Shown in pieces: positions 46,811 to 63,457 of a DNA stretch of 64,000 bases. Position numbers and translations under genes: made by a program. The stretch is from an uncultured Eudoraea sp. (GTDB lineage Bacteria; Bacteroidota; Bacteroidia; Flavobacteriales; Flavobacteriaceae), in NCBI GenBank assembly GCA_947258405.1, contig CAMYIE010000004.1, positions 1 through 64,000 on the forward strand, in the 5' to 3' direction. Position 1 is the first letter of the stretch. Each line of letters opens with the position of its first letter. The notes beneath the pieces are model-generated. The model was not told the DNA's origin. It did not search any database and worked only from the letters and a program-made list of their open reading frames with translations.

Positions 46811-46827
46811 ACCTTCAATTTTAGAGG

Positions 46828-46893
46828 ATGGATTTGACTGATTGCAACCTCTTAAAAAATGCTAAAGCAGCAACTGCTTCCACATTCGAATAG
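46828..46893 (+). CDS. Possible 21-codon leader peptide upstream of metK
   Basis: An ATG at 46828 opens a 21-residue frame ending in TAG at 46893, 53 bases before metK. It encodes [20 protein letters not shown] plus a final Glu. It is preceded by GAGG and by a -7 box 17 bases upstream, so it would be the first frame on the transcript. No methionine run or other clear attenuator feature is present. It may be chance; conservation across relatives would decide. Confidence 0.25.
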
Positions 46894-48251: not shown

Positions 48252-48280
48252 CCGCGTAACGTTCCGTTAAATATTGTTTT

Positions 48281-48389
48281 GTTATCAAGAAAGGTGGAGG
48301 GAATAGACCCTTTGAAACCTTAGCAACCCTTTGGACTCTTTATCAAAGAAGGTGCTAAATTCTATCCTATTAATAATGGGGCAGATAAC
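48281..48389 (+). ncRNA. SAM-I (S-box) riboswitch, metY leader
   Basis: The closing stem is GTTATC (48281-48286) with GATAAC (48384-48389). Between them is the conserved SAM-I core: AAGAAAGGTGGAGGG, then GACCCTTTGAAACC, TTAGCAACC and the P4 element AAGGTGCTAAATTC. The element controls transcription or translation of genes by binding SAM. Downstream, AATTAC/GTAATT (48396-48412) and a T-rich stretch may form a weak terminator, and ATCCG/CGGAT (48439-48467) another hairpin nearer the metY start; the expression platform is not clear. Confidence 0.95.
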
Positions 48390-48501
48390 AGGATAAATTA
48401 CATTTTGTAATTATTCACTCTTTCTTTTTTAACAGTACATCCGTCTAATATCTAGGCCGGAGCGGATTAATTGTATATAAAACAACATTAAAACTAAAAC
48501 A

Positions 48502-49865: not shown

Positions 49866-52800
49866 ATGGAAGTCGTTACCACAGCCTTGCAACAACTGGA
49901 TATTCCCGGTTTTACCACATATGGTGGGTGGTCGCAGGATATAATTTTAACGTATCAGCTCTTTGGTCGTGAATTGCATTCAGCACCAGTGGTGGTGGTC
50001 AATCATGCATTGACCGGTAATTCTAACGTAGCAGGTAAAAATGGATGGTGGTCTGAACTCATCGGTAAAGGCAAGTGTATCGACACAGATTCCTATACCG
50101 TTCTCGCCTTTAATATACCGGGTAATGGTTACGATGGCTTTGTTATTGACAATTACAAAGACTATGTCGCGGGAGATATTGCAAGAGTATTTCTCCTGGG
50201 AATAGAGAAGCTGGGTATTTCCAAGGTTTTTGCTACCATAGGAGGTTCGTTAGGAGGAGGTATTGCCTGGGAAATGGCAGCGCTGAAACCAGATCTAATT
50301 AATCATTTAATCCCGATAGCCTCGGATTGGAAGTCGACCGACTGGCTTATCGCCAACTGTCAAATTCAGGAGCAAATCCTTAAGAATTCCAGACAGCCGG
50401 TTCACGATGCGCGTATGCATGCCATGTTGTGCTACAGAACCCCTGAGTCGTTTAAGCAACGCTTCAAACGAAGCACCAATGAAGAATTGCAGGTATTCAA
50501 TGTGGAGAGTTGGTTAACCCATCATGGTAATAAGTTACAGGAAAGGTTTCAACTTTCCGCTTATAAACTGACAAATCAGTTGCTGAAAACCATCGAAATA
50601 ACGAGAGAGGGGAGTCATAAATTCGACGAGCTGAGGGATAGCGAGACCAATATCCATATCATAGGAGTGGATTCCGATCTCTTTTTTACCGCAAGTGAGA
50701 ACAGGGAAACGTTTAAACAATTAGCCCAGTTAAAAACCAATGTAACCTATGGTGAAATTCAATCTGTTCACGGCCATGATGCTTTCCTCATGGAATATGA
50801 ACAATTGGGAAAATTACTAAAAAGCGTTTTTGATGATAACGAGAAAAATACACCTTATAAAATTCTGAAATTTGGAGGTCGTTCTCTTTCAAATGGGGAG
50901 GGTATCGGAAGAGTGCTCGAAATCATTAAAAATAAGGCAGATAAAGCGGAAAATATTGTTGTGGTACTTTCGGCCAGGGAGAAAGCCACAGACCAACTGG
51001 AGGAAATTCTTGAAAAAGCTGCTTCAGGGAGGAGCTACAAAGAAGACTTTGAAGCTTTTGAGGCCTATCAACGCCATACCTTTAAGAATGTAGATCTTTC
51101 TGAAGACTTTGAAGCACTGGTTCGCATATTGGAAGGTGTGGCTATGTTGGGAGATTATAGTCATAAGATAAAAGACCAGGTTCTTGCTTACGGGGAGATT
51201 ATCGCTGGAAAATTGATGACTAAATTGCTTATTGGTCTGGGGCTGAATGCCAGGTTACTCGACTCTAGAAACCTGATTAAAACAGACGATACCTACGGTG
51301 ATGCTAAAGTGCTGGAAGAGCTATCCAGAGAAAAAGTCCTGGAAGAGTTTTCAGGTCTGCAATCTGGAGAGGTTCCTGTAGTTACCGGTTTTATAGCTTC
51401 AACAGCCGAGAATGAGACTACAACCTTGGGCAGGAATGGAAGTAATTATACTGCTTCTTTGCTGGCTAATTTCCTCGATGCCTCAGAATTGCAAAACTAC
51501 ACTCATGTCAATGGGATATATACCGCCAACCCTGAGTTAGTGCGCGATGCCAGGCGGATATCGAACTTATCGTATACCGAGGCTAATGAATTGGCCAATT
51601 TCGGTGCGACAATACTCCATGCGAAAACGATTATTCCTCTTATTGAAAAAAATATCCCTCTAAGGATCCTAAATACATTTAACGAAGATGACAAGGGTAC
51701 TTTGATAAGTTCAAAATCGAGTGTCGAGGGAATCAAATCGCTGTCTGTTATCGAAAATGAGGCCCTTATCAATCTAGAGGGTAGGGGGCTTTTGGGCAAA
51801 GTAGGTATCGATGCGCGAATCTTTAAGACACTTAGCCGGAACAATATTAGTGTTAGTATAATTTCTCAGGGATCCTCAGAAAGAGGTATTGGCCTGGTGG
51901 TAGATTCCGTAAAAGCGAAAAAGGCAAAACTTGCTCTTCAGCAGGAATTTGAGACCGATTTTCGCAGTCGGGATATAAATTCGATCAGTATTGTGGATGA
52001 GGTATCGGTGATCTCCATTGTGGGCCAGGATCTGAGCACCTTCCATAAACCGTACAATGCCCTGATCAAGAATCAAATCATACCCTTGCTTTTCAACAAT
52101 ACCATTACCGGAAAAAATGTTAGCCTGGTGGTAAGAAAGACCGATCTGCATAAAGCCTTGAATGTTATGCACGGCCAGATATTTGGTATTAATAAAAAGG
52201 TGAATCTGGTCATTTTTGGTCATGGAAATGTGGGGAGTACGCTAATAGATCAAATTCTGGTTTCTGCCCAAAAAATCTCAAAAAGGAAAGGAATCGAACT
52301 CAATATTTTCGCCCTGGCGAATTCACGTAAACTGCTAATGAACCCATCAGGAATTGGAACTGATTGGAAAAAGGAGATCGAAAATAACGGTACGCCCTAT
52401 TCGTTAGAGGATCTTTTTCAATTTACCAGGCAGCACCATTTGGAAAACCTTATCGCTGTAGATAACTCGGCCAGTGAAACTCTGGTCGCCAAATACTTTG
52501 ACCTTGTCGAAAATGGCTTCGATCTTGTTTCATCAAACAAAATCGCCAACACATTAGGTTTCGATTATTATCGCTTGCTCAGGGCGGACCTTGCAAAGTT
52601 TCAAAAGCAATATCTGTATGAAACTAATGTTGGTGCGGGACTACCATTGATCGACACTATTAAACTACTGCATCTATCGGGGGAAAATATCACAAAGATA
52701 AAAGGTGTCTTTTCGGGTTCATTGAGCTATATATTTAATTCATATTCAGAACAACAGACTTCCTTTTCCGATATCGTGAAAGAGGCCATGACCAGGGGGT

Positions 52801-53270
52801 ATACCGAGCCGGATCCTCGCGAGGACTTATCAGGTAACGACGTTGGCCGTAAGTTGCTGATTCTCGCACGAGAATTAGATCTGCATAACGAGTTTAACGA
52901 GATCAAAGTTCAAAACCTAATTCCCAAACCATTGCGGGAATTAGAGCAGGAGGAGTTTATGGATCGTCTGGATGAGTTAGACCATCCTTTTCAGGAGATC
53001 CGCAGCAAGCAGGATCCCAACAATGTCTTGCGCTATATTGGCTCACTCCATGGTAACTTGCAGGACGAAAAAGGAATATTGGAGGTAAAGCTGGTTTCGG
53101 TGGCACGGAATAGTTCAATGGGCCAGGTAAAAGGATCCGATTCCATTATTGAGATCTATACAGAGTCTTATGGTGAACATCCGCTGGTGATCCAGGGTGC
53201 TGGCGCTGGTGCGGCGGTAACGGCCCGAGGTGTTTTCGGTGACATTCTGAGGATAGCGGAAAAATTGTAG
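49866..53270 (+). CDS. thrA: MetX-aspartokinase-homoserine dehydrogenase triple-domain protein
   Basis: One 1134-residue frame carries three enzymes. Residues 1 to about 325 are a homoserine acyltransferase-type alpha/beta hydrolase with Ser128 (GGSLGGG), Asp271 (VDSDLFF) and His304 (VHGHDAFL). Residues about 331-775 are an aspartokinase starting KFGGRS, where Arg replaces the usual Thr, followed by regulatory ACT-like sequence. Residues about 778-1134 are homoserine dehydrogenase with the Rossmann motif FGHGNVGS and the GGFSG-like VFSGSLSYIFNSY. Together they catalyse the first and third steps of the aspartate pathway and then acylate homoserine. It lies between two sulfhydrylase genes that would use the product. 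Confidence 0.93.
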   Translation: MEVVTTALQQLDIPGFTTYGGWSQDIILTYQLFGRELHSAPVVVVNHALTGNSNVAGKNGWWSELIGKGKCIDTDSYTVLAFNIPGNGYDGFVIDNYKDYVAGDIARVFLLGIEKLGISKVFATIGGSLGGGIAWEMAALKPDLINHLIPIASDWKSTDWLIANCQIQEQILKNSRQPVHDARMHAMLCYRTPESFKQRFKRSTNEELQVFNVESWLTHHGNKLQERFQLSAYKLTNQLLKTIEITREGSHKFDELRDSETNIHIIGVDSDLFFTASENRETFKQLAQLKTNVTYGEIQSVHGHDAFLMEYEQLGKLLKSVFDDNEKNTPYKILKFGGRSLSNGEGIGRVLEIIKNKADKAENIVVVLSAREKATDQLEEILEKAASGRSYKEDFEAFEAYQRHTFKNVDLSEDFEALVRILEGVAMLGDYSHKIKDQVLAYGEIIAGKLMTKLLIGLGLNARLLDSRNLIKTDDTYGDAKVLEELSREKVLEEFSGLQSGEVPVVTGFIASTAENETTTLGRNGSNYTASLLANFLDASELQNYTHVNGIYTANPELVRDARRISNLSYTEANELANFGATILHAKTIIPLIEKNIPLRILNTFNEDDKGTLISSKSSVEGIKSLSVIENEALINLEGRGLLGKVGIDARIFKTLSRNNISVSIISQGSSERGIGLVVDSVKAKKAKLALQQEFETDFRSRDINSISIVDEVSVISIVGQDLSTFHKPYNALIKNQIIPLLFNNTITGKNVSLVVRKTDLHKALNVMHGQIFGINKKVNLVIFGHGNVGSTLIDQILVSAQKISKRKGIELNIFALANSRKLLMNPSGIGTDWKKEIENNGTPYSLEDLFQFTRQHHLENLIAVDNSASETLVAKYFDLVENGFDLVSSNKIANTLGFDYYRLLRADLAKFQKQYLYETNVGAGLPLIDTIKLLHLSGENITKIKGVFSGSLSYIFNSYSEQQTSFSDIVKEAMTRGYTEPDPREDLSGNDVGRKLLILARELDLHNEFNEIKVQNLIPKPLRELEQEEFMDRLDELDHPFQEIRSKQDPNNVLRYIGSLHGNLQDEKGILEVKLVSVARNSSMGQVKGSDSIIEIYTESYGEHPLVIQGAGAGAAVTARGVFGDILRIAEKL

Positions 53271-53296: not shown

Positions 53297-54469
53297 GTGA
53301 AGAAAAAATTTGAAACAGAGGCCGTTAGAACGCAGATAAAAAGAACTGAGTTCCAGGAACATTCCAGTCCTGTATATCTTACTTCGAGTTTTGTTTTTGA
53401 GGATGCAGAGGATATGAGAGCCTCATTCGCAGAAGAAAAGGAGCACAATATTTATAGCCGGTATTCCAATCCGAATTCCGAAGAATTCATTGAAAAGGTA
53501 TGTAAAATGGAAGGAGCAGAGCATGGCTTTGCATTTTCATCGGGTATGGCCGCAGTTTTTTCAACATTCGCAGCACTCCTGGAAAGTGGAGACCATATAG
53601 TTTCTTCCCGAAGTATTTTTGGTTCTACCCATAGCCTGTTCACACAATTTTTTCCCCGATGGAAAATCGATCATAGTTATTTCATGATCAACAGACTCGA
53701 TGAAATTGAGGCACTGATTAGACCTGAGACCAAAATGATATATGCCGAGTCGCCAACAAATCCGGCCGTAGATGTTCTGGACCTGACCGAACTTGGCCGG
53801 ATTGCCCGTAAACATAATATTTTACTGGTGGTCGACAATTGCTTTGCAACTCCTTATTTACAACAACCTATAAGGTTCGGGGCCGATCTCGTGATCCATT
53901 CGGGAACCAAGCTGATGGATGGACAGGGCAGGGTACTGGCCGGGATCACGGTTGGCAATAAAGAGTTAATTGAAAAAATCTATCGTTTTTCCCGAATTAC
54001 CGGCCCGACCTTATCGCCATTTAATGCCTGGCTGCTCTCTAAAAGCTTAGAGACCTTGGCCGTCAGGGTAGACAGGCATTGTGAAAATGCTTTGGCAGTC
54101 GCCCGGTTTCTGGAGGCTCACCCATCCGTTGAGAGGGTGAAGTATCCTTTTCTGAAATCACACCCTCAGTATTCATTAGCCAAAAAGCAAATGAAAGCAG
54201 GAGGCTGTGTGGTTGCTTTCGAAGTAAAAGGAGGCCTTCAAGCAGGCCGGAGGTTTCTCGATTCGATCAGAACATTGTCCCTTTCTGCAAACCTGGGTGA
54301 TACCAGAAGTATTGTAACCCACCCTGCCTCAACAACACATAGTAAATTAAGTTCTACTGAAAGGGCCGAAACCGGAATTACCGATGGCATGGTTCGTATT
54401 TCTGTAGGACTTGAACACGTTGATGATATCATCACGGACCTGAAACAAGCCCTTGAGAACTCCCACTGA
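53297..54469 (+). CDS. metZ: Homoserine sulfhydrylase/cystathionine-synthase-type PLP enzyme
   Basis: This 390-residue enzyme belongs to the Cys/Met metabolism PLP family. Motifs are YSRYSNPNSEEFIEKV, AFSSGMAAVFSTF, PLP Lys in IHSGTKLMDGQGR, and VTHPASTTHSKLS. It resembles O-succinylhomoserine sulfhydrylase (MetZ) more than MetY in length, but whether it prefers acetyl- or succinyl-homoserine, or cysteine as sulfur donor, cannot be settled from sequence. The only usable start is GTG at 53297, because an in-frame stop sits directly upstream. It begins 26 bases after the fusion gene. Confidence 0.85.
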   Translation: MKKKFETEAVRTQIKRTEFQEHSSPVYLTSSFVFEDAEDMRASFAEEKEHNIYSRYSNPNSEEFIEKVCKMEGAEHGFAFSSGMAAVFSTFAALLESGDHIVSSRSIFGSTHSLFTQFFPRWKIDHSYFMINRLDEIEALIRPETKMIYAESPTNPAVDVLDLTELGRIARKHNILLVVDNCFATPYLQQPIRFGADLVIHSGTKLMDGQGRVLAGITVGNKELIEKIYRFSRITGPTLSPFNAWLLSKSLETLAVRVDRHCENALAVARFLEAHPSVERVKYPFLKSHPQYSLAKKQMKAGGCVVAFEVKGGLQAGRRFLDSIRTLSLSANLGDTRSIVTHPASTTHSKLSSTERAETGITDGMVRISVGLEHVDDIITDLKQALENSH

Positions 54470-54504: not shown

Positions 54505-54945
54505 ATGCTGTCGAAAAAGACAAAATACGGATTAAAAGCGCTGGCATTCCTGGCGACCAAGGAGCTGCGAGAACCGGTTCAGATCGCTGAAATCGCTTCA
54601 GAGGAAAATATTCCTCAGAAATTCCTGGAAAGTATTTTACTCAGCCTGAGGAAGACTGGTTTTTTAGGATCTAAAAAAGGCAAGGGCGGAGGTTATTACC
54701 TGATAAAAGATCCTTCCGAAATACAGATGACCAGTGTAATACGGGTTCTCGAAGGCCCAATTGCCATGGTGCCCTGTGTTAGTCTGAATTTTTATGAGAA
54801 ATGCGACGACTGTCCGGATGAAAATACATGTGCCGTACATAAACTGATGATCCAGGTGCGCGACAGCGCCTTAAACGTATATCGCAAAAACACACTGGCC
54901 GACATTATTATAGATCCCAAAATCATCAAATCTAAACGCTCTTAG
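54505..54945 (+). CDS. Rrf2-family transcriptional regulator with four cysteines
   Basis: This 146-residue protein has the Rrf2 winged helix (SKKTKYGLKALAFLA, then PVQIAEIASEENIPQKFLESIL and GGGYYLIKDP). The cluster Cys91, Cys100, Cys103, Cys109 with His112 resembles the Fe-S ligand region of IscR and could hold an iron-sulfur cluster or sense cysteine status. It lies between metZ and cysH, and an 8-bp-arm inverted repeat lies at the predicted cysH start site. I infer that it represses the sulfite reductase operon, like CymR-type regulators. Confidence 0.9.
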   Translation: MLSKKTKYGLKALAFLATKELREPVQIAEIASEENIPQKFLESILLSLRKTGFLGSKKGKGGGYYLIKDPSEIQMTSVIRVLEGPIAMVPCVSLNFYEKCDDCPDENTCAVHKLMIQVRDSALNVYRKNTLADIIIDPKIIKSKRS

Positions 54946-55050
54946 TTAGGAATTCTTCAATAATCATAGGGATTTACAATTAATCTAGTAAAACGATAGA
55001 CTAATTAGCATTTTTTATTTCCTTTAACTTCTATCAAAGAAGATTTAATA

Positions 55051-55083
55051 TATATTTGAATATCCTATTAAATCTATAGGATA
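55051..55083 (+). promoter_or_regulatory. cysH -7 box followed by an inverted-repeat operator
   Basis: TATATTTG (55051-55058) is an exact -7 box. Two bases later begins an inverted repeat with perfect 8-bp arms, TATCCTAT (55061-55068) and ATAGGATA (55076-55083), separated by 7 bases. The expected transcription start falls inside the left arm, so a bound protein would block initiation. The Rrf2 protein encoded just upstream is the natural candidate. cysH starts at 55102. Confidence 0.7.
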
Positions 55084-55101: not shown

Positions 55102-55725
55102 ATGCCTTTTACCAGAGAACAAATCGATAGCCTGAATCACCAGTTCAGAGGGATTCAACCCGAGGAAATTATTTCCTGGGCTGTTGAAAATGCCTCTTCT
55201 CCCGTGGTCACCACCAACTTCAGGCCTTATGAGGTCGTAATCCTGTCTGCAGTGTCGGAAGTGAAATCCGATATACCGGTGATATGGTGCGATACAGGTT
55301 ATAATACTCCTAATACATATCAACATGCCGAGGAGCTTATAGAAACACTCGATCTTAATATAAAACTCTTTGTCCCACTTCAAACGGCAGCGCATCGCGA
55401 TGCTGTAATGGGAATACCACAAATTGAGGATCCGCGCCATGAGGAGTTTACCCGCCAGGTAAAACTGGAACCATTCGGCAGGGCCATGGCAGAATTCAAA
55501 CCCGATATTTGGTTCACCAACCTCAGAAAAGGCCAGACAGCACACAGGGATACTTTAAACATATTGAGTCTGAGCAATGAAGGCGTCCTCAAGGTTAGCC
55601 CGTTTTTTCACTGGACAGACAGCCAATTGGATATATACCTTCAGCAAAAAGGCCTCCCTAATGAGCACAATTATTTTGACCCCACCAAGGTGCTTGAAAA
55701 TCGTGAATGCGGTTTACATGTATAA
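55102..55725 (+). CDS. cysH: Phosphoadenylylsulfate reductase
   Basis: CysH reduces activated sulfate (PAPS or APS) to sulfite using thioredoxin. The 207 residues include the PAPS-reductase fold motif VIWCDTGYNTPNTY and the thioredoxin-accepting Cys203 in RECGLH at the C-terminal end. The paired cysteines that hold an Fe-S cluster in APS reductases are absent, so PAPS is the likely substrate. It starts a sulfite-reduction operon with the siroheme genes. Sulfate adenylyltransferase (cysDN) and APS kinase genes are not in this window. Confidence 0.92.
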   Translation: MPFTREQIDSLNHQFRGIQPEEIISWAVENASSPVVTTNFRPYEVVILSAVSEVKSDIPVIWCDTGYNTPNTYQHAEELIETLDLNIKLFVPLQTAAHRDAVMGIPQIEDPRHEEFTRQVKLEPFGRAMAEFKPDIWFTNLRKGQTAHRDTLNILSLSNEGVLKVSPFFHWTDSQLDIYLQQKGLPNEHNYFDPTKVLENRECGLHV

Positions 55726-55846: not shown

Positions 55847-57934
55847 ATGAAAAGTTTTAGAACAGAAATTGAGAATCCAGTAGTTGAAAAGGATATCATA
55901 GAACTGGAAAGAAAGATCAGGCAGTTCAAAGAAGGCGGCCTCGATGAAGAGAAATTCCGCAGTCTTCGCCTGGCAAGAGGCGTTTATGGCCAGCGCCAAC
56001 CTGGAGTTCAGATGATCCGCATTAAACTACCGTATGGTAAAGTGAGTTCGCATCAACTTCGAAGAATTTCAGATGTTGCCGATGAATACTCAACTGGTCG
56101 ATTACATATTACAACACGTCAGGATATCCAGATCCATTACGTAGACCTGGAAAGAACTCCGGAACTCTGGGCACAATTAGAAAAAGACCAGGTTACCCTG
56201 AGGGAGGCTTGCGGGAATACAGTTCGAAATGTCACAGCCAGTGAAACGGCAGGGATCGACCCCGGTGAACCATTCGATGTTTCGCCCTATGCGCAAGGAG
56301 TTTTCGAATACTTCCTTAGAAATCCAATCGGTCAGGAACTGGGAAGAAAATTTAAGGTTTCCTTTTCTGCCACCGATGCCGATTCAGGCCTTTCTTATAT
56401 CCATGACCTGGGATTTATCGCTAAAATCAGGGATAATATACGTGGGTTTAAGGTAATGCTCGGTGGTGGTCTGGGAGCTCAGCCCAGACATGCAGACCTG
56501 CTGTACGAATTTCTTCCTGAAGATAGAATAATACCTCTTATGGAGGCGGTGGTTCGCATATTCGATCGCCACGGAGAGCGAAGGAGCAGGGCGAGAGCAC
56601 GCATGAAATTTCTCATAAGGGATCTTGGACTCGTGCGCTTCAAAGAATTATTACAGGAACACGAATTGGCAATAGAAAATAAAACTCATAAAATCGATGT
56701 AAAGTCCTATCCTCAGGTGAGCATGCTCGGTAACCCTGCCCCGACCGTCGATATTAAGGACCGGGCAAGCTTCGAATATTGGGAATCGACGAATCTAATA
56801 CCTCAAAAGCAACAAGGGTTTAAGGCCATTGGGATCAAGGTTTTATTGGGCGATTTTTATACCGATACGGCCAGGCAGCTTGCAGATCTTGTGGAGCGGT
56901 ATGCGGCCGGTGAAATACGACTGTCCTTACGTCAGAATATACTCATCCCTTACGTAAAAGAAGAGGCCATCCCGTTTTTTTATCAGGAACTAGAAAAACT
57001 GGGATTAGCGGAAGCAGGCTATAACAAAGCACTGGATATTACCGCCTGCCCTGGTACGGATACCTGTAACCTGGGGATCGCCAGTAGTACTGGCATTGCC
57101 AGAGAACTGGAACGGGTAATTAAAACTGAATATCCCGCCTATATAAACAACCCCGATGTGGTGATCAAGATCAGTGGTTGTATGAACGCCTGTGGGCAGC
57201 ATAACATGGCGCATATCGGCTTCCAGGGGATGTCTGTCCGAACTAAAGACAAATTGGTTGCACCAGCACTTCAGGTCCTCCTCGGCGGCGGAAATCTGGG
57301 AAATGGCAAGGGTTTATTTGCCGATAAGGTTATTAAGATACCCAGTAAAAGAGGTCCGCAAGCTCTTCGACAGATCCTCGACGATTATGAACGCAACGGA
57401 CAAGGATCCTATGAAGAATACTATAAGCTGCAAGGTGAAAAATATTTTTACGAATTGCTAAAGCCACTGGCCGGAACCGATAATTTAAACCCTGAAGATT
57501 TTATCGATTGGGGCAATGAAGAACGATATAAAAAAGCTATCGGTGTTGGCGAATGTGCAGGCGTCGTTATCGATTTGGTGGCCACGCTTCTCTTTGAAAG
57601 CGATGAAAAGATCAGCCAGGCAAAAGAAAATCTAGAGGTTGCTAAATGGGCAGCCAGTATTTATTACTCTTATGCGGCAATTGTCAACGGGGCAAAGGCC
57701 TTGTTGACCTCAGAAAATACCAGGACGAATACTCATGCTAGTATAATTAAAGACTTCCAACAGTTTTTTGTGGAAAATAAACGATTGGAGCTCGGGCGTC
57801 CCTTCGATGAACTGGTATTGCAAATCGACAAAAAAGGGCCGTCCGAAAATTTTGCCAGGACCTACCTCGCCGATGCAGTAGATTTTCTTAAAAAAGCCGA
57901 AGCCTACCGGGCAAAAGAACTAAAGGTCGCCTGA
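55847..57934 (+). CDS. Sulfite reductase hemoprotein with C-terminal HEPN domain
   Basis: The 695-residue protein is a siroheme-[4Fe-4S] nitrite/sulfite reductase. Two ferredoxin-like/core repeats precede the cluster ligands Cys401, Cys407, Cys445 and Cys449 (TACPGTDTC and SGCMNACGQH). The region after about residue 565 (GVVIDLVATLLFESDEKI onward) is an all-helical HEPN-type domain not found in CysI. Sulfite is preferred as substrate because of the adjacent cysH. No flavoprotein (CysJ) partner is adjacent, so ferredoxin is a likely donor. It is followed 3 bases later by cobA. Confidence 0.92.
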   Translation: MKSFRTEIENPVVEKDIIELERKIRQFKEGGLDEEKFRSLRLARGVYGQRQPGVQMIRIKLPYGKVSSHQLRRISDVADEYSTGRLHITTRQDIQIHYVDLERTPELWAQLEKDQVTLREACGNTVRNVTASETAGIDPGEPFDVSPYAQGVFEYFLRNPIGQELGRKFKVSFSATDADSGLSYIHDLGFIAKIRDNIRGFKVMLGGGLGAQPRHADLLYEFLPEDRIIPLMEAVVRIFDRHGERRSRARARMKFLIRDLGLVRFKELLQEHELAIENKTHKIDVKSYPQVSMLGNPAPTVDIKDRASFEYWESTNLIPQKQQGFKAIGIKVLLGDFYTDTARQLADLVERYAAGEIRLSLRQNILIPYVKEEAIPFFYQELEKLGLAEAGYNKALDITACPGTDTCNLGIASSTGIARELERVIKTEYPAYINNPDVVIKISGCMNACGQHNMAHIGFQGMSVRTKDKLVAPALQVLLGGGNLGNGKGLFADKVIKIPSKRGPQALRQILDDYERNGQGSYEEYYKLQGEKYFYELLKPLAGTDNLNPEDFIDWGNEERYKKAIGVGECAGVVIDLVATLLFESDEKISQAKENLEVAKWAASIYYSYAAIVNGAKALLTSENTRTNTHASIIKDFQQFFVENKRLELGRPFDELVLQIDKKGPSENFARTYLADAVDFLKKAEAYRAKELKVA

Positions 57935-57937
57935 TAG

Positions 57938-58756
57938 ATGAAGCTCGTAAAAAAACATATCGAAACCGGGACTTCACCTGGCAGGATTAAATCTGCAAAA
58001 AGGGGGAAACTTTCGGTTGTGGGAGCAGGACCCGGGGACCCGGAATTGATAACGCTCAAGGCGGTAAAGGCTCTTCAAAGTGCCGATACGGTCTTGTATG
58101 ACGCTCTTGTAGACACAGAACTGCTAAAATATGCGGCAGGGGCTGAGCTGGTTTTTGTCGGCAAACGGAAGGGTTGCTATGCCTTCCATCAGCAACAGAT
58201 CAACGAGCTGATTGTGCAACGGGCATTGGAAGGTAAATATGTGGTCCGATTAAAAGGCGGAGACCCTTTCGTATTTGGTAGAGGAGCAGAGGAAATAGAG
58301 TACGCCGCCGTCTATGGGGTTACCTCTGATGTAATTCAGGGGATTTCTTCAGCAGTGGCCGTACCAGCCGGTCTGAATATACCAGTTACCAAGCGGGGGG
58401 TTTCAGAAAGTTTCTGGGTGATTACCGGAACAACCCGGGATCACCAATTATCTTCAGATATACATCTTGCTGCAAAATCGAGTGCCACTATAGTGATCCT
58501 CATGGGAATGTCTAAACTTACAGCTATCGTAAACTGTTTTAAAAATGAAGGAAGAGCCAAAATTCCGGTGGCGGTGATCCAAAATGGAACAACAGCCCAT
58601 GAAAATTTTGGGATAGGCACTATAGACAGCATAGAAAATGAAGTAAAGAAACGACAGTTAAGTAATCCGGCTATCATCGTTATTGGCGAGGTGGTTAACC
58701 ACCGTATACAGTTACTGAGGACCCGGGAGCAATTTAAAATGCAAATGATACATTAA
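57938..58756 (+). CDS. cobA: Uroporphyrinogen-III C-methyltransferase
   Basis: CobA methylates uroporphyrinogen III twice with SAM to give precorrin-2, the first step to siroheme. The 272-residue protein has LSVVGAGPGDPELITLKA, VRLKGGDPFVFGRGAEE and GLNIPVTKRGVSESF, all standard. It lies directly between the sulfite reductase and the precorrin-2 dehydrogenase gene with 3- and 2-base gaps, so the operon makes both the enzyme and its cofactor. It begins with about 22 extra residues before the core. Confidence 0.95.
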   Translation: MKLVKKHIETGTSPGRIKSAKRGKLSVVGAGPGDPELITLKAVKALQSADTVLYDALVDTELLKYAAGAELVFVGKRKGCYAFHQQQINELIVQRALEGKYVVRLKGGDPFVFGRGAEEIEYAAVYGVTSDVIQGISSAVAVPAGLNIPVTKRGVSESFWVITGTTRDHQLSSDIHLAAKSSATIVILMGMSKLTAIVNCFKNEGRAKIPVAVIQNGTTAHENFGIGTIDSIENEVKKRQLSNPAIIVIGEVVNHRIQLLRTREQFKMQMIH

Positions 58757-58758
58757 TA

Positions 58759-59343
58759 ATGGACCGCAATACATTATATCCGATTTTCCTAAAAGCATCA
58801 AACCTGAAAATTCTAATCGTGGGTGGAGGTTATGTGGCTGAAGAAAAACTGAGCTTTCTGACTAAATCGAGCCCTGATGCACAAGTAACCATATTGGCAC
58901 CGTTAATCAGAGAAGGAACTTTAAAAGTAGCCATGGGAAATAATGTAAAAATTATCCGGGATGTTTATGATGCAGACCGTATTCGTGGTTTTCATATCGT
59001 TATCGCCACCACCGATCAGCCAGAAGTCAATATGAAAATTTATAAAGATTGCCGCGCTTTGGACAAATTGATCAATGTAGCCGACAATCCTCCTCTTTGC
59101 GACTTTTACATGGGTGGGATTGTTACCAAAGGCCATGTCAAGCTGGCAATATCAACCAACGGAAAATCTCCGACCACCGCGAAGCGACTTCGACAGTTTT
59201 TCGAGGAAGTACTGCCGGAAGATATTAGCTATATGGTAGAAAACCTCAACCAATACCGCCGTAGGATTAAAGGTGGTTTTGAACAGAAAGTTGAGAAAAT
59301 GAATCGGTTAACCGAAATTTTGGTACAAAAAGAAAAGATCTGA
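58759..59343 (+). CDS. Precorrin-2 dehydrogenase/sirohydrochlorin ferrochelatase
   Basis: This 194-residue protein is the CysG N-terminal (Met8-like) type. It has the NAD-binding ILIVGGGYVAEEKLSFL, followed by VADNPPLCDFYMGGIV and STNGKSPTTAKRLRQFF. It would oxidise precorrin-2 to sirohydrochlorin, and Met8-type enzymes can also insert iron. Whether this one does cannot be seen, and no CysG-C or SirB gene follows. It ends the cysH operon at a terminator-like hairpin. Confidence 0.92.
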   Translation: MDRNTLYPIFLKASNLKILIVGGGYVAEEKLSFLTKSSPDAQVTILAPLIREGTLKVAMGNNVKIIRDVYDADRIRGFHIVIATTDQPEVNMKIYKDCRALDKLINVADNPPLCDFYMGGIVTKGHVKLAISTNGKSPTTAKRLRQFFEEVLPEDISYMVENLNQYRRRIKGGFEQKVEKMNRLTEILVQKEKI

Positions 59344-59420: not shown

Positions 59421-59508
59421 AATATAACCGTCTAAAAAAACCTTCAAATTCTTGTTTATAAATCCTAACTGTCTTTTCTTTGCAGGGCGTTCATAATTTC
59501 GCTGAATT

Positions 59509-59610
59509 GTTATCAAGAAAGGTGGAGGGAATAGACCCGATGAGACCTTAGCAACCCTTTATCTTTAAAGAAGGTGCTACGTTCTATCCCTGTTTGTGGG
59601 GGAAGATAAC
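59509..59610 (+). ncRNA. SAM-I (S-box) riboswitch, metH leader
   Basis: P1 is GTTATC (59509-59514) with GATAAC (59605-59610). The core AAGAAAGGTGGAGGG, GACCCGATGAGACC, TTAGCAACC and AAGGTGCTACGTTC are nearly identical to the metY leader element at 48281. It regulates the split methionine synthase genes and perhaps metF. Closest match between the two elements is in the ligand-binding core, and P3 differs in length. Confidence 0.96.
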
Positions 59611-59613
59611 CCT

Positions 59614-59686: not shown

Positions 59687-60709
59687 ATGCCATTGATTAA
59701 AGATATATTGAAAGAAAGAATACTCGTCCTCGATGGAGCTATGGGTACCATGTTACAGCGACACCGATTCACTGAAAGCGATTTCCGGGGAAATCGATTT
59801 AAAGATTGGTCTGTATCGCTTCAGGGCAATAACGACCTGTTAACCCTTACCCAACCCGACGCCATTGCAGAGGTTCATCGTAAATACTTTGAAGCCGGAG
59901 CAGATATCGTGGAGACAAACACTTTTTCCAGTACCTCGGTAGGAATGTCTGATTACAACATGGAGGAATTGGTGTATGAGATCAACATAGAGGCAGCAAG
60001 GATTGCGAGAAAAGAGGCCAGAATTTTTACAGAACAGCAACCTCACAAACCGCGGTTTGTGGCTGGCAGCATCGGACCTACCAATAAAACAGCAAGTATG
60101 TCACCCGCTGTTGATGATCCCGGATTCCGGGCCATCACTTTCGATGAGTTGAGAATTGCTTACAGAGAACAGGTCGAGGGTTTGATAGATGGTGGTGTGG
60201 ATATTCTACTGGTAGAGACCGTATTCGACACTCTAAATGCCAAAGCTGCTCTTTTTGCGATAGAAGAAGCCATAGAGCAAAAGCAGAAAGATATACCCAT
60301 CATGATAAGTGGCACGATAACAGATGCCTCAGGGCGCACACTTTCGGGCCAGACAGCCGAAGCCTTTATGGTGTCGGTTTCTCATATTCCCCTTATGTCC
60401 ATTGGTTTTAATTGTGCCCTTGGTGCAGATCAGCTGACACCTTATTTAGAAGTATTATCGGCAAAGTCTGAATTTGCGATCTCTGCGCATCCTAATGCAG
60501 GTCTCCCAAATGCCTTTGGCAATTACGAACAGACACCAGAACAGATGGCCGAACAGATTAAGACATATCTCGAAAAAAACTTGGTAAACATCGTAGGGGG
60601 TTGTTGTGGTACCACCCCTGAACATATAAGTGCAATAGCCAAATTGGTAATAGATTACAAGCCCAGGATCATTCCCAGGCTTTCGGCAACCCCTTTGACT
60701 AGGTTCTAA
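59687..60709 (+). CDS. metH: Methionine synthase, homocysteine-binding subunit (split MetH)
   Basis: This 340-residue protein is the N-terminal homocysteine S-methyltransferase module of cobalamin-dependent methionine synthase. Zinc-binding Cys243 (GFNCALG) and Cys306-Cys307 ([10 protein letters not shown]) are present. It begins [12 protein letters not shown] as in E. coli MetH. The chain ends before the folate module, and the rest of MetH is encoded by a separate frame 3 bases downstream. Both probably work as one enzyme. The SAM-I riboswitch lies 76 bases upstream. Confidence 0.94.
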
Positions 60710-60712
60710 AAT

Positions 60713-63457
60713 ATGGATGTATCGGATCAAAATACCGGGAGTAGCAGCGAACCAGAGTTTCTGGATCATTCACGTGAAAAAGATGGTGAAACCAGGGATC
60801 GATATCTGAAATTATCGGGCCTCGAAGCCCTTGTGGTAACTCCTCAGAGTAACTTTATCAATGTAGGAGAGCGCACCAATGTAGCGGGTTCCCGGAAATT
60901 CCTCCGCCTGATAAAGGAAGAAAAGTACGAAGAAGCCCTGGATATTGCGCGTCATCAGGTTGAAGGCGGAGCACAGATCATCGATGTTAATATGGATGAT
61001 GGTATGATCGATGGCAAGGAGGCCATGGTAAAATTCCTCAGCCTTGTAATGGCAGAACCCGATATTGCCAGAGTCCCTATAATGATCGATAGCTCGAAAT
61101 GGGAAATCCTGGAAGCCGGGCTTCAAACTGTTCAAGGCAAATGCGTGGTAAACTCCATCAGTTTAAAGGAAGGCGAGGAGGACTTCATCCGACAGGCAAA
61201 GCTGATCAGACGTTACGGAGCAGCTGTGATTGTTATGGCTTTCGATGAGCTTGGGCAGGCTGATAACTACGAAAGACGAATAGAGATCGCCAGGCGATCC
61301 TACGATTTGCTCGTGGAAAAGGTAGGCTTTCCTCCGGAAGACATCATTTTTGACTTAAATATATTTCCCGTGGCTACCGGAATGGAAGAACACAGGAGAA
61401 ATGCACTCGATTTTATTGAAGCTACCGCCTGGGTGAGAACGCATCTTCTCTTCTGTAGTGTCAGTGGAGGCGTCAGCAATGTATCTTTTAGCTTTAGAGG
61501 CAATAATACCGTAAGGGAGGCCATGCATTCGGTTTTCCTGTATCACGCGATAAAAGCGGGCATGAATATCGGGATTGTAAATCCGGCTATTTTAGAGATT
61601 TATGATGATATTCCAAAGGATCTTCTAGACCATGTAGAAGATGTTATTCTCAACAGAAGGGATGATGCCACGGAGCGCCTGCTCGAATTTGCGCAAACTG
61701 TAGAAGCTACCAAAGAACGAAAAAAAGAAGACCTGGTATGGAGAAAAGCTCCGCTTCAAGATAGAATTACCAGGGCTTTGGTTAAGGGAATCGATCAGTA
61801 TATCGAAGAAGATGTGGAAGAAGCCCGACTGTCGGTAACCAGGCCTTTGGAGGTGATCGAAGGACATTTGATGACCGGGATGAATGTTGTAGGTGATCTC
61901 TTTGGTAGCGGTAAAATGTTTTTACCACAGGTGGTTAAATCCGCCAGGGTTATGAAAAAGGCCGTAGCGCATCTTACACCGTTTATAGAAGAGGCAAAGG
62001 AAGAAAATACGAACTATGCAGGTAAGATTCTGATGGCCACGGTAAAAGGGGATGTACACGATATAGGAAAGAACATTGTGAGCGTAGTGCTGAGTTGTAA
62101 TAACTATGAAATTATTGACCTGGGGGTGATGGTACCCCCTGAAAAGATCATTAAGGCAGCTCGTGAGCACCAGGTTGATATTATCGGTCTGAGCGGACTG
62201 ATCACACCTTCCTTAGACGAAATGGTTTTCCTGGCTAAAGAAATGGAGCGACAGGAATTCCAGGTTCCGCTGCTCATCGGCGGGGCAACCACCAGCAAGG
62301 CACATACAGCAGTGAAGATCGACACCCAATATAGCGCTTCGGTCGTACATGTAAATGATGCCTCCCGTGCGGTTACCGTTGTGGGCGATCTGTTGAATAA
62401 AGAACATTCGAAGGCCTATAAGAATGGTATAAAGCTCGACTATGAGTCTTTTAGGGAAAAGTTCCTTGAACGCCGAAGAAAGAAGGAATACCTGACCATA
62501 GAAGAGGCGAGGCACAACCGATTGAAAATCGATTGGTCTGCCGTGGTCACACCCCCTCCCAAAAAACCGGGAGTGCATATACTGAAAGATCTTGATTTAA
62601 AAAACCTGGTGGACTATATCGACTGGACGCCTTTTTTCAGGAGTTGGGATCTGCATGGCAAGTACCCTCAGATCCTGGAGGACTCAGTTGTAGGAGAACA
62701 GGCCAGGGATTTGTTTCGGGATGCAAAAAAGATGCTGGATGAGGTTATAAAGGATAAAAAACTTCAGGCCCAGGCTGTTTTTGGCATTTTTCCGGCAAAC
62801 AGCCAGGGAGACGATATTGAATTGAATTCGTCAAAAGGAAATTTCAATTTCAGAACATTGCGGCAGCAGTTGAAGAAGAAACAGAGAATTCCCAATCTTG
62901 CACTGGCCGATTTCATCGCAACCAAGCAGAGTGGTACCCAGGACTACGTGGGTTGTTTTTGTGTGACTGCAGGCTTTGGAACCAGGGCTCTGGCTGAGGA
63001 ATACGAAAAGAATATGGACGACTACAGCGCTATTATGATCAAGGCACTTGCAGATCGATTAGCCGAAGCATTTGCCGAGTATCTCCATGAATTGGTGCGG
63101 ACCGAATATTGGGGTTATGATGCAATAGAAGACCTTACTAACGAGGAATTAATAGGTGAGAAATATCGTGGGATCAGGCCGGCTCCGGGATATCCTGCAT
63201 GTCCTGATCACCTTGAGAAATTAACCATTTGGGAAGTGCTGGATGTGGAAGAAAATATAGGGGTGATCCTTACGGAGAATCTGGCCATGTGGCCCGCAGC
63301 AAGTGTAAGCGGATACTATTTTGCACACCCACAGGCTCGATATTTCGGTCTGGGCAAGATTCAAACGGATCAACTAGTTGATTATGCCAAGAGAAAAGGG
63401 ATCGATCTGGAAAAAGCTCGTAAATGGCTTGCGCCTGCTTTAAACGATAATTCATAA
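60713..63457 (+). CDS. metH: Methionine synthase, folate/B12/activation subunit (split MetH)
   Basis: The 914 residues contain the methyltetrahydrofolate-binding barrel (about 45-310, [16 protein letters not shown] and [14 protein letters not shown]), the cobalamin cap and Rossmann domain (about 340-590) with the B12-binding motif Asp447-x-His449-x-x-Gly452 ([10 protein letters not shown]), and the C-terminal SAM-dependent activation domain (about 630-914, [12 protein letters not shown]). It lacks only the homocysteine module, which the preceding gene supplies. The first about 40 residues are a polar linker. No frameshift is implied: a stop, then 3 bases, then ATG separate the two frames. Confidence 0.95.

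Follow-up and report, generated by a model that had tools for sequence, protein, structure and literature searches.

This locus raises the question of what is controlled by an Rrf2-family regulator whose gene stands between methionine and cysteine genes, and through which DNA site. In the window (the whole 64,000-nucleotide stretch analyzed here), the regulator is a protein of 146 amino acids encoded on the forward strand at 54505–54945, which was examined by Pfam search (Rrf2, E-value 1.8e-36), an alignment of 107 loci, and an AlphaFold model. The flanking window genes that were submitted to Pfam proved to be methionine and cysteine genes. On the upstream side, a gene resembling O-succinylhomoserine sulfhydrylase (53297–54469, forward strand; 521.4 bits with NCBIfam, just below the cut-off of 522) ends 35 bp before the Rrf2 start, and a methionine operon may have Rrf2 as its final gene. 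A SAM-I riboswitch (48279–48391, forward strand; Rfam RF00162, 82.6 bits) precedes the row of methionine genes at whose end Rrf2 stands. A gap of at most 110 bp between the methionine neighbor and Rrf2 was found in 36 of the 55 loci having such a neighbor in the held-out set described below; if Rrf2 is cotranscribed with the methionine genes, repressor supply would track SAM as well. On the downstream side, 156 bp containing the repeat discussed below separate Rrf2 from a cysH-type PAPS/APS reductase gene (55102–55725; Pfam PAPS_reduct, 1.5e-22), which would head the controlled operon. A NirA/SiR-type sulfite reductase gene (55847–57934; Pfam NIR_SIR, 1.7e-44) probably belongs to the same operon and is followed by genes for the uroporphyrinogen-III C-methyltransferase of siroheme synthesis (57938–58756; over the cut-off of NCBIfam TIGR01469) and for a siroheme synthase N-terminal domain protein (CysG-N, 58759–59343; over the cut-off of NCBIfam TIGR01470), all four being on the forward strand.

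Several other features of this region were recorded. An ORF of 1134 amino acids at 49866–53270 fuses alpha/beta-hydrolase, aspartokinase, and homoserine dehydrogenase parts and so forms a compact methionine-branch fusion; its alpha/beta-hydrolase part was judged by context to be homoserine acyltransferase-like. Three SAM riboswitches of two classes lie inside 13 kb (46818–46875, 48279–48391, and 59507–59612), with SAM-II preceding metK, one SAM-I preceding the sulfhydrylase genes, and another SAM-I preceding the methionine synthase genes (metK and methionine synthase were named by eye). Methionine synthase is seemingly split into adjacent entries of the ORF list (59687–60709, 340 amino acids, and 60713–63457, 914 amino acids). 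The C-terminal part of the sulfite reductase resembles HEPN below threshold (20.3 bits versus a cut-off of 22).

The sequence-only reading of this DNA had placed a perfect inverted repeat over the predicted start of cysH, and this description was borne out. The predicted operator O1 (55061–55083, forward strand) has 8-bp arms, TATCCTAT-N7-ATAGGATA, and its full sequence, TATCCTATTAAATCTATAGGATA, occurs as an exact match once in the 64-kb window and once in the 3.27-Mb genome. When up to 3 mismatches were allowed, the pattern was found at 22 places in the host genome versus 21 for the reversed control; the repeat is thus not rare by itself at this stringency, and its weight rests on conservation. 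The Bacteroidota −7 box has the form TAnnTTTG, and TATATTTG at 55051–55058 (forward strand) is presumably a box of this type. Because it ends 2 bp before O1, the transcription start should fall inside the repeat, so that the predicted start is a reasonable one, and a site in this position fits a repressor.

Conservation was followed in 149 genomes of the family. Rrf2 orthologs (E ≤ 1e-20) were present in 104 of these, and the 108 matches gave 107 loci for study, a match at a contig end in G112 being left out. A locus counted as having a target when cysH or DUF2061 followed on the same strand no more than 800 bp downstream, and expected counts were taken from dinucleotide shuffles. The core YCTA-N9-TAGR was found in the gap behind Rrf2 in 80 of the 82 family loci with such a target (1.42 expected), the strict core being absent in two, and in 6 of the 25 loci lacking such a target (0.24 expected). 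From 97 core matches, four were dropped before modeling (the second hit of L008, an overlap in L036, a far hit in L097, and a reverse hit in L089), and the others yielded 85 distinct sites. These describe a 23-bp palindrome with the core YCTAYTAAAtCkATAGR, in which CTA and TAG are the invariant positions. A position matrix derived from these 85 sites was then run on 80 named loci, mostly of Flavobacteriaceae (Robiginitalea, Maribacter, Cellulophaga, Flagellimonas, and others); removal of 11 that were in the training set left 69 held-out loci, some of them close to training loci. At a score of at least 18, a site preceded DUF2061 wherever this gene came first (53/53) and cysH wherever it came first (13/13), giving 66 of 66 promoters in the 69 loci, and nirA had a site of its own in 19 of 63 cases. 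As a control, cysD in the held-out loci had none at this score (0/51). Absence of the repeat upstream of orthologous cysH genes accompanied by the same regulator had been named beforehand as the outcome that would speak against the pairing; in both sets the repeat was present, and the proposal that protein and repeat belong together was upheld, since the site tracks the regulator. Across 818,730 bases, a set limited to loci surrounding Rrf2, all 120 matrix matches of at least 18 lay no more than 400 bp upstream of DUF2061, cysH, or nirA. Within 250 bp upstream of Rrf2 itself, a site of score 18 was found in none of the 69 held-out loci; autoregulation is not claimed, though the outgroup locus L205 has a site upstream of Rrf2.

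Placement relative to the promoter box was similarly regular. Among 94 family sites (counted without the L008 second, L036, and L097 matches and with L089 kept), TAnnTTTG lay only 5′ of the site in 68 (at 2 bp in 45 and at 5–6 bp in 21), only 3′ in 5 (L084, L093, L096, L104, and L105, 4 bp away in each), and on both sides in one (L089); of the 20 with no box, 16 were copies of the second operator described below. In all 80 named loci, held-out and training together, the box stood at 2 bp in 67 of 74 box-bearing sites, and 60 of the 134 sites were boxless. Both the 5′ and the 3′ arrangement would fit repression by blocking of the polymerase, as the available text on the Myxococcus xanthus repressor RisR proposes (PMC9973013).

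Regulator and pathway are also inherited together. Using E ≤ 1e-30, cysH was detected in 95 of the 149 family genomes, 92 of which also have Rrf2 (Fisher p = 1.5e-22). In the three genomes with cysH and no Rrf2, no site was found in the 6–7.5 kb around cysH, and the cys genes lie a few tens of bases behind methionine genes. Two of these genomes are incomplete (80% and 73%), and the third, G123, is a single contig of 99% completeness. They amount to a natural experiment, in which site and regulator are jointly missing where cys genes directly follow methionine genes. Comparative genomics thus establishes the predicted operator, its main predicted targets, their co-inheritance with the regulator, and the position of the site at the promoter box.

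Outside the family, with the Rrf2 subfamily followed inside Bacteroidota, 9 of 17 Rrf2 loci had DUF2061, cysD, cysN, or nirA close by, and a site of score at least 15 was seen in only 7 of the 17. No site was seen beside nirA in L196, L199, or L209, and in L211 Rrf2, the site, and a 1-Cys peroxiredoxin gene are adjacent. In the distant loci L106 and L107, DUF2061 is divergent from Rrf2, and a similar palindrome, ATTCCTA-N9-TAGGAAT, lies between them, upstream of Rrf2.

The extent of the regulon was approached by a profile scan of the host genome, in which 150 of 2026 candidates were scored. O1 ranked first (E-value 7e-4) and the second operator, O2, ranked second (0.04), followed by the promoter of DUF2061-cysD-cysN (0.4), a weak site on another contig whose matrix score of 15.7 lies under the cut-off of 18. 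This ranking suggests a likely regulon of sulfate activation plus sulfite reduction. In relatives the commonest gene order is Rrf2-DUF2061-cysH-cysD-cysN-nirA-cobA, and where the operon is separate from Rrf2 (L173, L174, L189, and L190) the sites stay with the cys operon. Predicted sites therefore lie upstream of cysH, DUF2061-cysH-cysD-cysN, and nirA, a sulfur/cysteine regulon of the CymR type. The protein had been suggested to be a repressor of sulfite reduction; its predicted targets are indeed sulfate and sulfite assimilation genes, but the scope looks wider, since cysD-cysN for sulfate activation and the siroheme genes are included.

In most relatives, among them 53 of the 69 held-out loci, Rrf2 and the operator are followed first by the gene for DUF2061, a membrane family without assigned function (also recorded at L172:5039–5467); the host version carries two such domains and precedes cysD. 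Shared control ties this membrane family to sulfate assimilation, in which it likely has a role. A near-identical operator was also found before the gene for a 1-Cys peroxiredoxin (Prx6) in three genera (L176, L177, and L178). No site was found at the host's own Prx6 gene, which was not listed as a host target despite the sites in those three loci. A weak host match at C4:126639, beside rps15/pnp-like genes named by eye, was taken as chance. In a scan of 60 genomes, for which 52 matches were listed and part of them annotated, 9 of the 20 regions fetched had matches with no cys gene recognizable by eye (L180, L181, L182, L183, L184, L186, L187, L188, and L191), some of those in L182, L187, and L188 lying inside ORFs; single weak matches are accordingly unreliable.

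For the protein itself, the four cysteines described from the sequence were confirmed as C91, C100, C103, and C109, with the spacing Cx8Cx2Cx5C. In the alignment of 107 loci, C100, C103, and C109 are present in every relative and C91 in 106, and the same pattern occurs in all 80 named loci; position 112 is histidine in only 68 of 107. The Pfam score of 125.6 bits, against a gathering cut-off of 30, places the protein in the Rrf2 superfamily, and its model (mean pLDDT 81.8) has the winged-helix Rrf2 fold, with CymR, RsrR, NsrR, and IscR as the best PDB matches. The nearest solved structure is Bacillus subtilis CymR (Z 16.2, rmsd 1.6 over 126 residues); a Listeria relative (Z 15.2), Staphylococcus aureus CymR (14.9), and Escherichia coli IscR (14.8) follow and are tied. 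Residues 91–98 have pLDDT values under 50, so the cysteine geometry is not predicted. Scores against the curated NCBIfam equivalogs fell short of the cut-off for CymR, which scored best (NF047409, 81 bits versus 195), and for IscR (TIGR02010, 68.7 versus 207.55), RirA (57.9 versus 193), and NsrR (46.7 versus 182), and both CymR and IscR were ruled out as names on this basis. The protein thus resembles CymR in modeled fold and predicted target but carries its own cysteine set. These four conserved cysteines lie in a flexible loop that leads into the last long helix and probably form the sensor.

An IscR-like cysteine/histidine cluster, as suggested by the sequence-only reading, was not supported. 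The IscR ligand motif is defined as Cx5Cx5Cx2H in the part of the survey available, which divides characterized Rrf2 proteins into cluster-bearing and cysteine-pair classes (PMC9218516). The present protein lacks this motif, its histidine is not conserved, and its nearest fold is that of B. subtilis CymR, described as cluster-free in excerpts of PMC9338935. With IscR it shares the Rrf2 family and cysteines in the loop preceding the last long helix. IscR is an Fe–S cluster regulator, and the neighbors examined by Pfam here are methionine and cysteine genes. Its operator appears to us reminiscent of IscR type 1 sites.

The second predicted operator, O2 (TAATCTAGTAAAACGATAGACTA, 54981–55003, forward strand), is a weaker copy that had been overlooked in the sequence-only reading and lies exactly 80 bp upstream of O1. 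Among the 107 family loci, 16 have two sites 26–199 bp apart, and in all 16 the spacing is 79–81 bp; the core search also gave pairs at 9, 202, and 260 bp (L036, L008, and L097, respectively), outside the counted range. Of 35 held-out pairs, 31 are at 79–81 bp, 26 of them at exactly 80, and the other four are at 69, 69, 75, and 78 bp. The standard deviation of this spacing is 2.7 bp, whereas O2 lies anywhere from 48 to 158 bp beyond the Rrf2 stop codon (standard deviation 26.2). The 57-bp stretches that separate the operators, compared among the 26 pairs with a spacing of exactly 80 bp, have a mean identity of 53% and a lowest identity of 32%. Common descent in the absence of insertions and deletions could explain part of the fixed spacing. 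At 10.5 bp/turn, 80 bp corresponds to 7.6 helical turns, which does not make simple looping on one face an obvious explanation, and the pair stands as an unexplained promoter design. Most of the 82 family target loci have a single site. We put forward tentatively, as a reading with a real though lesser chance of being correct, that a distinct Rrf2 subfamily with its own four-cysteine ligand set links sulfate assimilation to the Fe–S or persulfide status of the cell by means of a rigid promoter with two operators, in which O2 and O1 would bracket the promoter boxes and act together, as a wrapped or looped complex or as an activator/repressor pair. The DNA between the two would then be free to change and not to lengthen. 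A block, TTTaaCGTCT (TTTAACTTCT, window 55023–55032), common to close relatives, was seen between both operators and upstream of the −7 box in two-operator loci among L001–L031; it may be a −33 element or the site of another factor.

Whether the repeat is a DNA site for this protein was weighed against two other accounts. It could form an RNA hairpin in the 5′ leader, serving as an attenuator or stability element: O1 has an 8-bp stem, and 78.2% of cells pair in the 85-site alignment, above all 500 shuffles, but DNA palindromes give the same signal. At the five loci with the sole box 3′ of the site, the site would not be transcribed, which excludes a transcribed hairpin there and argues for DNA, not RNA. 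Copies of O2 stand on the 5′ side of the promoter box, outside any transcript that it would give rise to, pair 8–16 is unpaired in 55 of the 85 sites and pair 3–21 in 45, and the site is absent where the DNA-binding protein is absent. The hairpin was rejected as extremely improbable. Scarcely more credible is that the repeat belongs to a different, unlinked transcription factor, Rrf2 being a bystander with targets of its own. Linkage by itself is no proof of binding, and in 12 of the 104 genomes with Rrf2, cysH was not detected at 1e-30; three of these match Rrf2 at only 45–49% identity, but nine do so at 62–81%, and such good orthologs suggest that the protein may have other targets. Against a bystander stand the joint loss of site and regulator (0 of 3 cysH-positive, Rrf2-negative genomes with a site) and the form of the site, a 23-bp palindrome with an ill-conserved center, which is the size of the 23-bp NsrR operator whose central 7 bp are uncontacted according to excerpts of PMC9338935.

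The mode of action and the signal admit further alternatives. An activator or dual switch, with O2 activating at a fixed distance, O1 repressing, and the cluster or thiol state of the protein setting which is filled, would account for the near-constant spacing in both sets across intervening DNA of low identity. Activators commonly sit at a set distance from the promoter, as O2 does here. IscR, moreover, is reported to have two site types for its holo and apo forms (PMC9973013, in the text available). On the other hand, O2 is dispensable, as judged by the single site of most family target loci, O1 and O2 share one motif rather than being of two types, and the position of O1 by itself suits a repressor; we consider an activator or dual switch rather unlikely. 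Similarly doubtful is a cysteine sensor acting as in CymR, through the partner CysK and O-acetylserine, with the cysteines only structural or redox-tuning. CymR is the best equivalog and the best fold, and the available text of PMC3828012 describes control of cysteine genes by B. subtilis CymR-CysK and predicted Clostridium acetobutylicum CymR targets that include cysD and cysN. However, 81 bits is far under the CymR cut-off, and the cluster-free state given for B. subtilis CymR in the portion of PMC9338935 available contrasts with the four conserved cysteines here.

Taken with the conserved sites, it is likely that the Rrf2 protein is a local regulator, most likely a repressor, of sulfate assimilation, acting via O1 and O2 and probably at DUF2061-cysD-cysN too, and released on shortage of reduced sulfur. 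Here we infer that the protein binds these sites directly, that it represses instead of activating, and which signal it answers to. In the proposed mechanism, an Rrf2 dimer on the 23-bp palindrome O1 would cover the start of the cysH operon and block RNA polymerase, and a second dimer would occupy O2, 80 bp upstream. The protein would probably also bind the DUF2061-cysD-cysN promoter, switching sulfate activation and sulfite reduction together. Repression would be lifted when reduced sulfur (cysteine, or Fe–S clusters made from it) is short, a signal suggested by the targets, and the four loop cysteines would probably sense this by holding an Fe–S cluster or reacting as thiols. Very probably, then, marine flavobacteria use a small regulator of the CymR/IscR family to switch sulfate-to-sulfide genes via a conserved 23-letter site at the gene start, frequently accompanied by another copy close to 80 letters farther upstream, as predicted from their genomes.

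An Rrf2 regulator of sulfur assimilation is an already known kind, represented by CymR, the cysteine master repressor of Bacillus and Staphylococcus. Family, closest fold, and control of cysteine and sulfur assimilation genes are shared with CymR (PMC3828012, as far as its available text goes), whereas the present protein comes from another phylum, has DUF2061 and siroheme genes among its likely targets, and has paired operators. RisR is likewise an Rrf2 repressor, and its footprint at the isc promoter extends over the start and the greater part of the −10 box; it controls isc and suf, however, not sulfate assimilation, according to the same partial source (PMC9973013). An Rrf2 regulator for sulfate activation also appears as an idea in a Rhodococcus annotation, but that case is actinobacterial, linked to CymR, and given with no operator in the excerpt available (PMC8557817). 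No Bacteroidota Rrf2 regulator of cys genes or sulfate assimilation was found in our searches of open-access papers, and the clade, the operator, the cysteine pattern, and the 80-bp architecture look to be the new parts. Such a Bacteroidota regulator now has a predicted operator, a target list, and a candidate sensor.

One further Rrf2 protein, the sole other one found by query in the host (L002, C3:219342), has a three-cysteine pattern, and its neighbors are cytochrome c-like and universal-stress-like genes, as named by eye.
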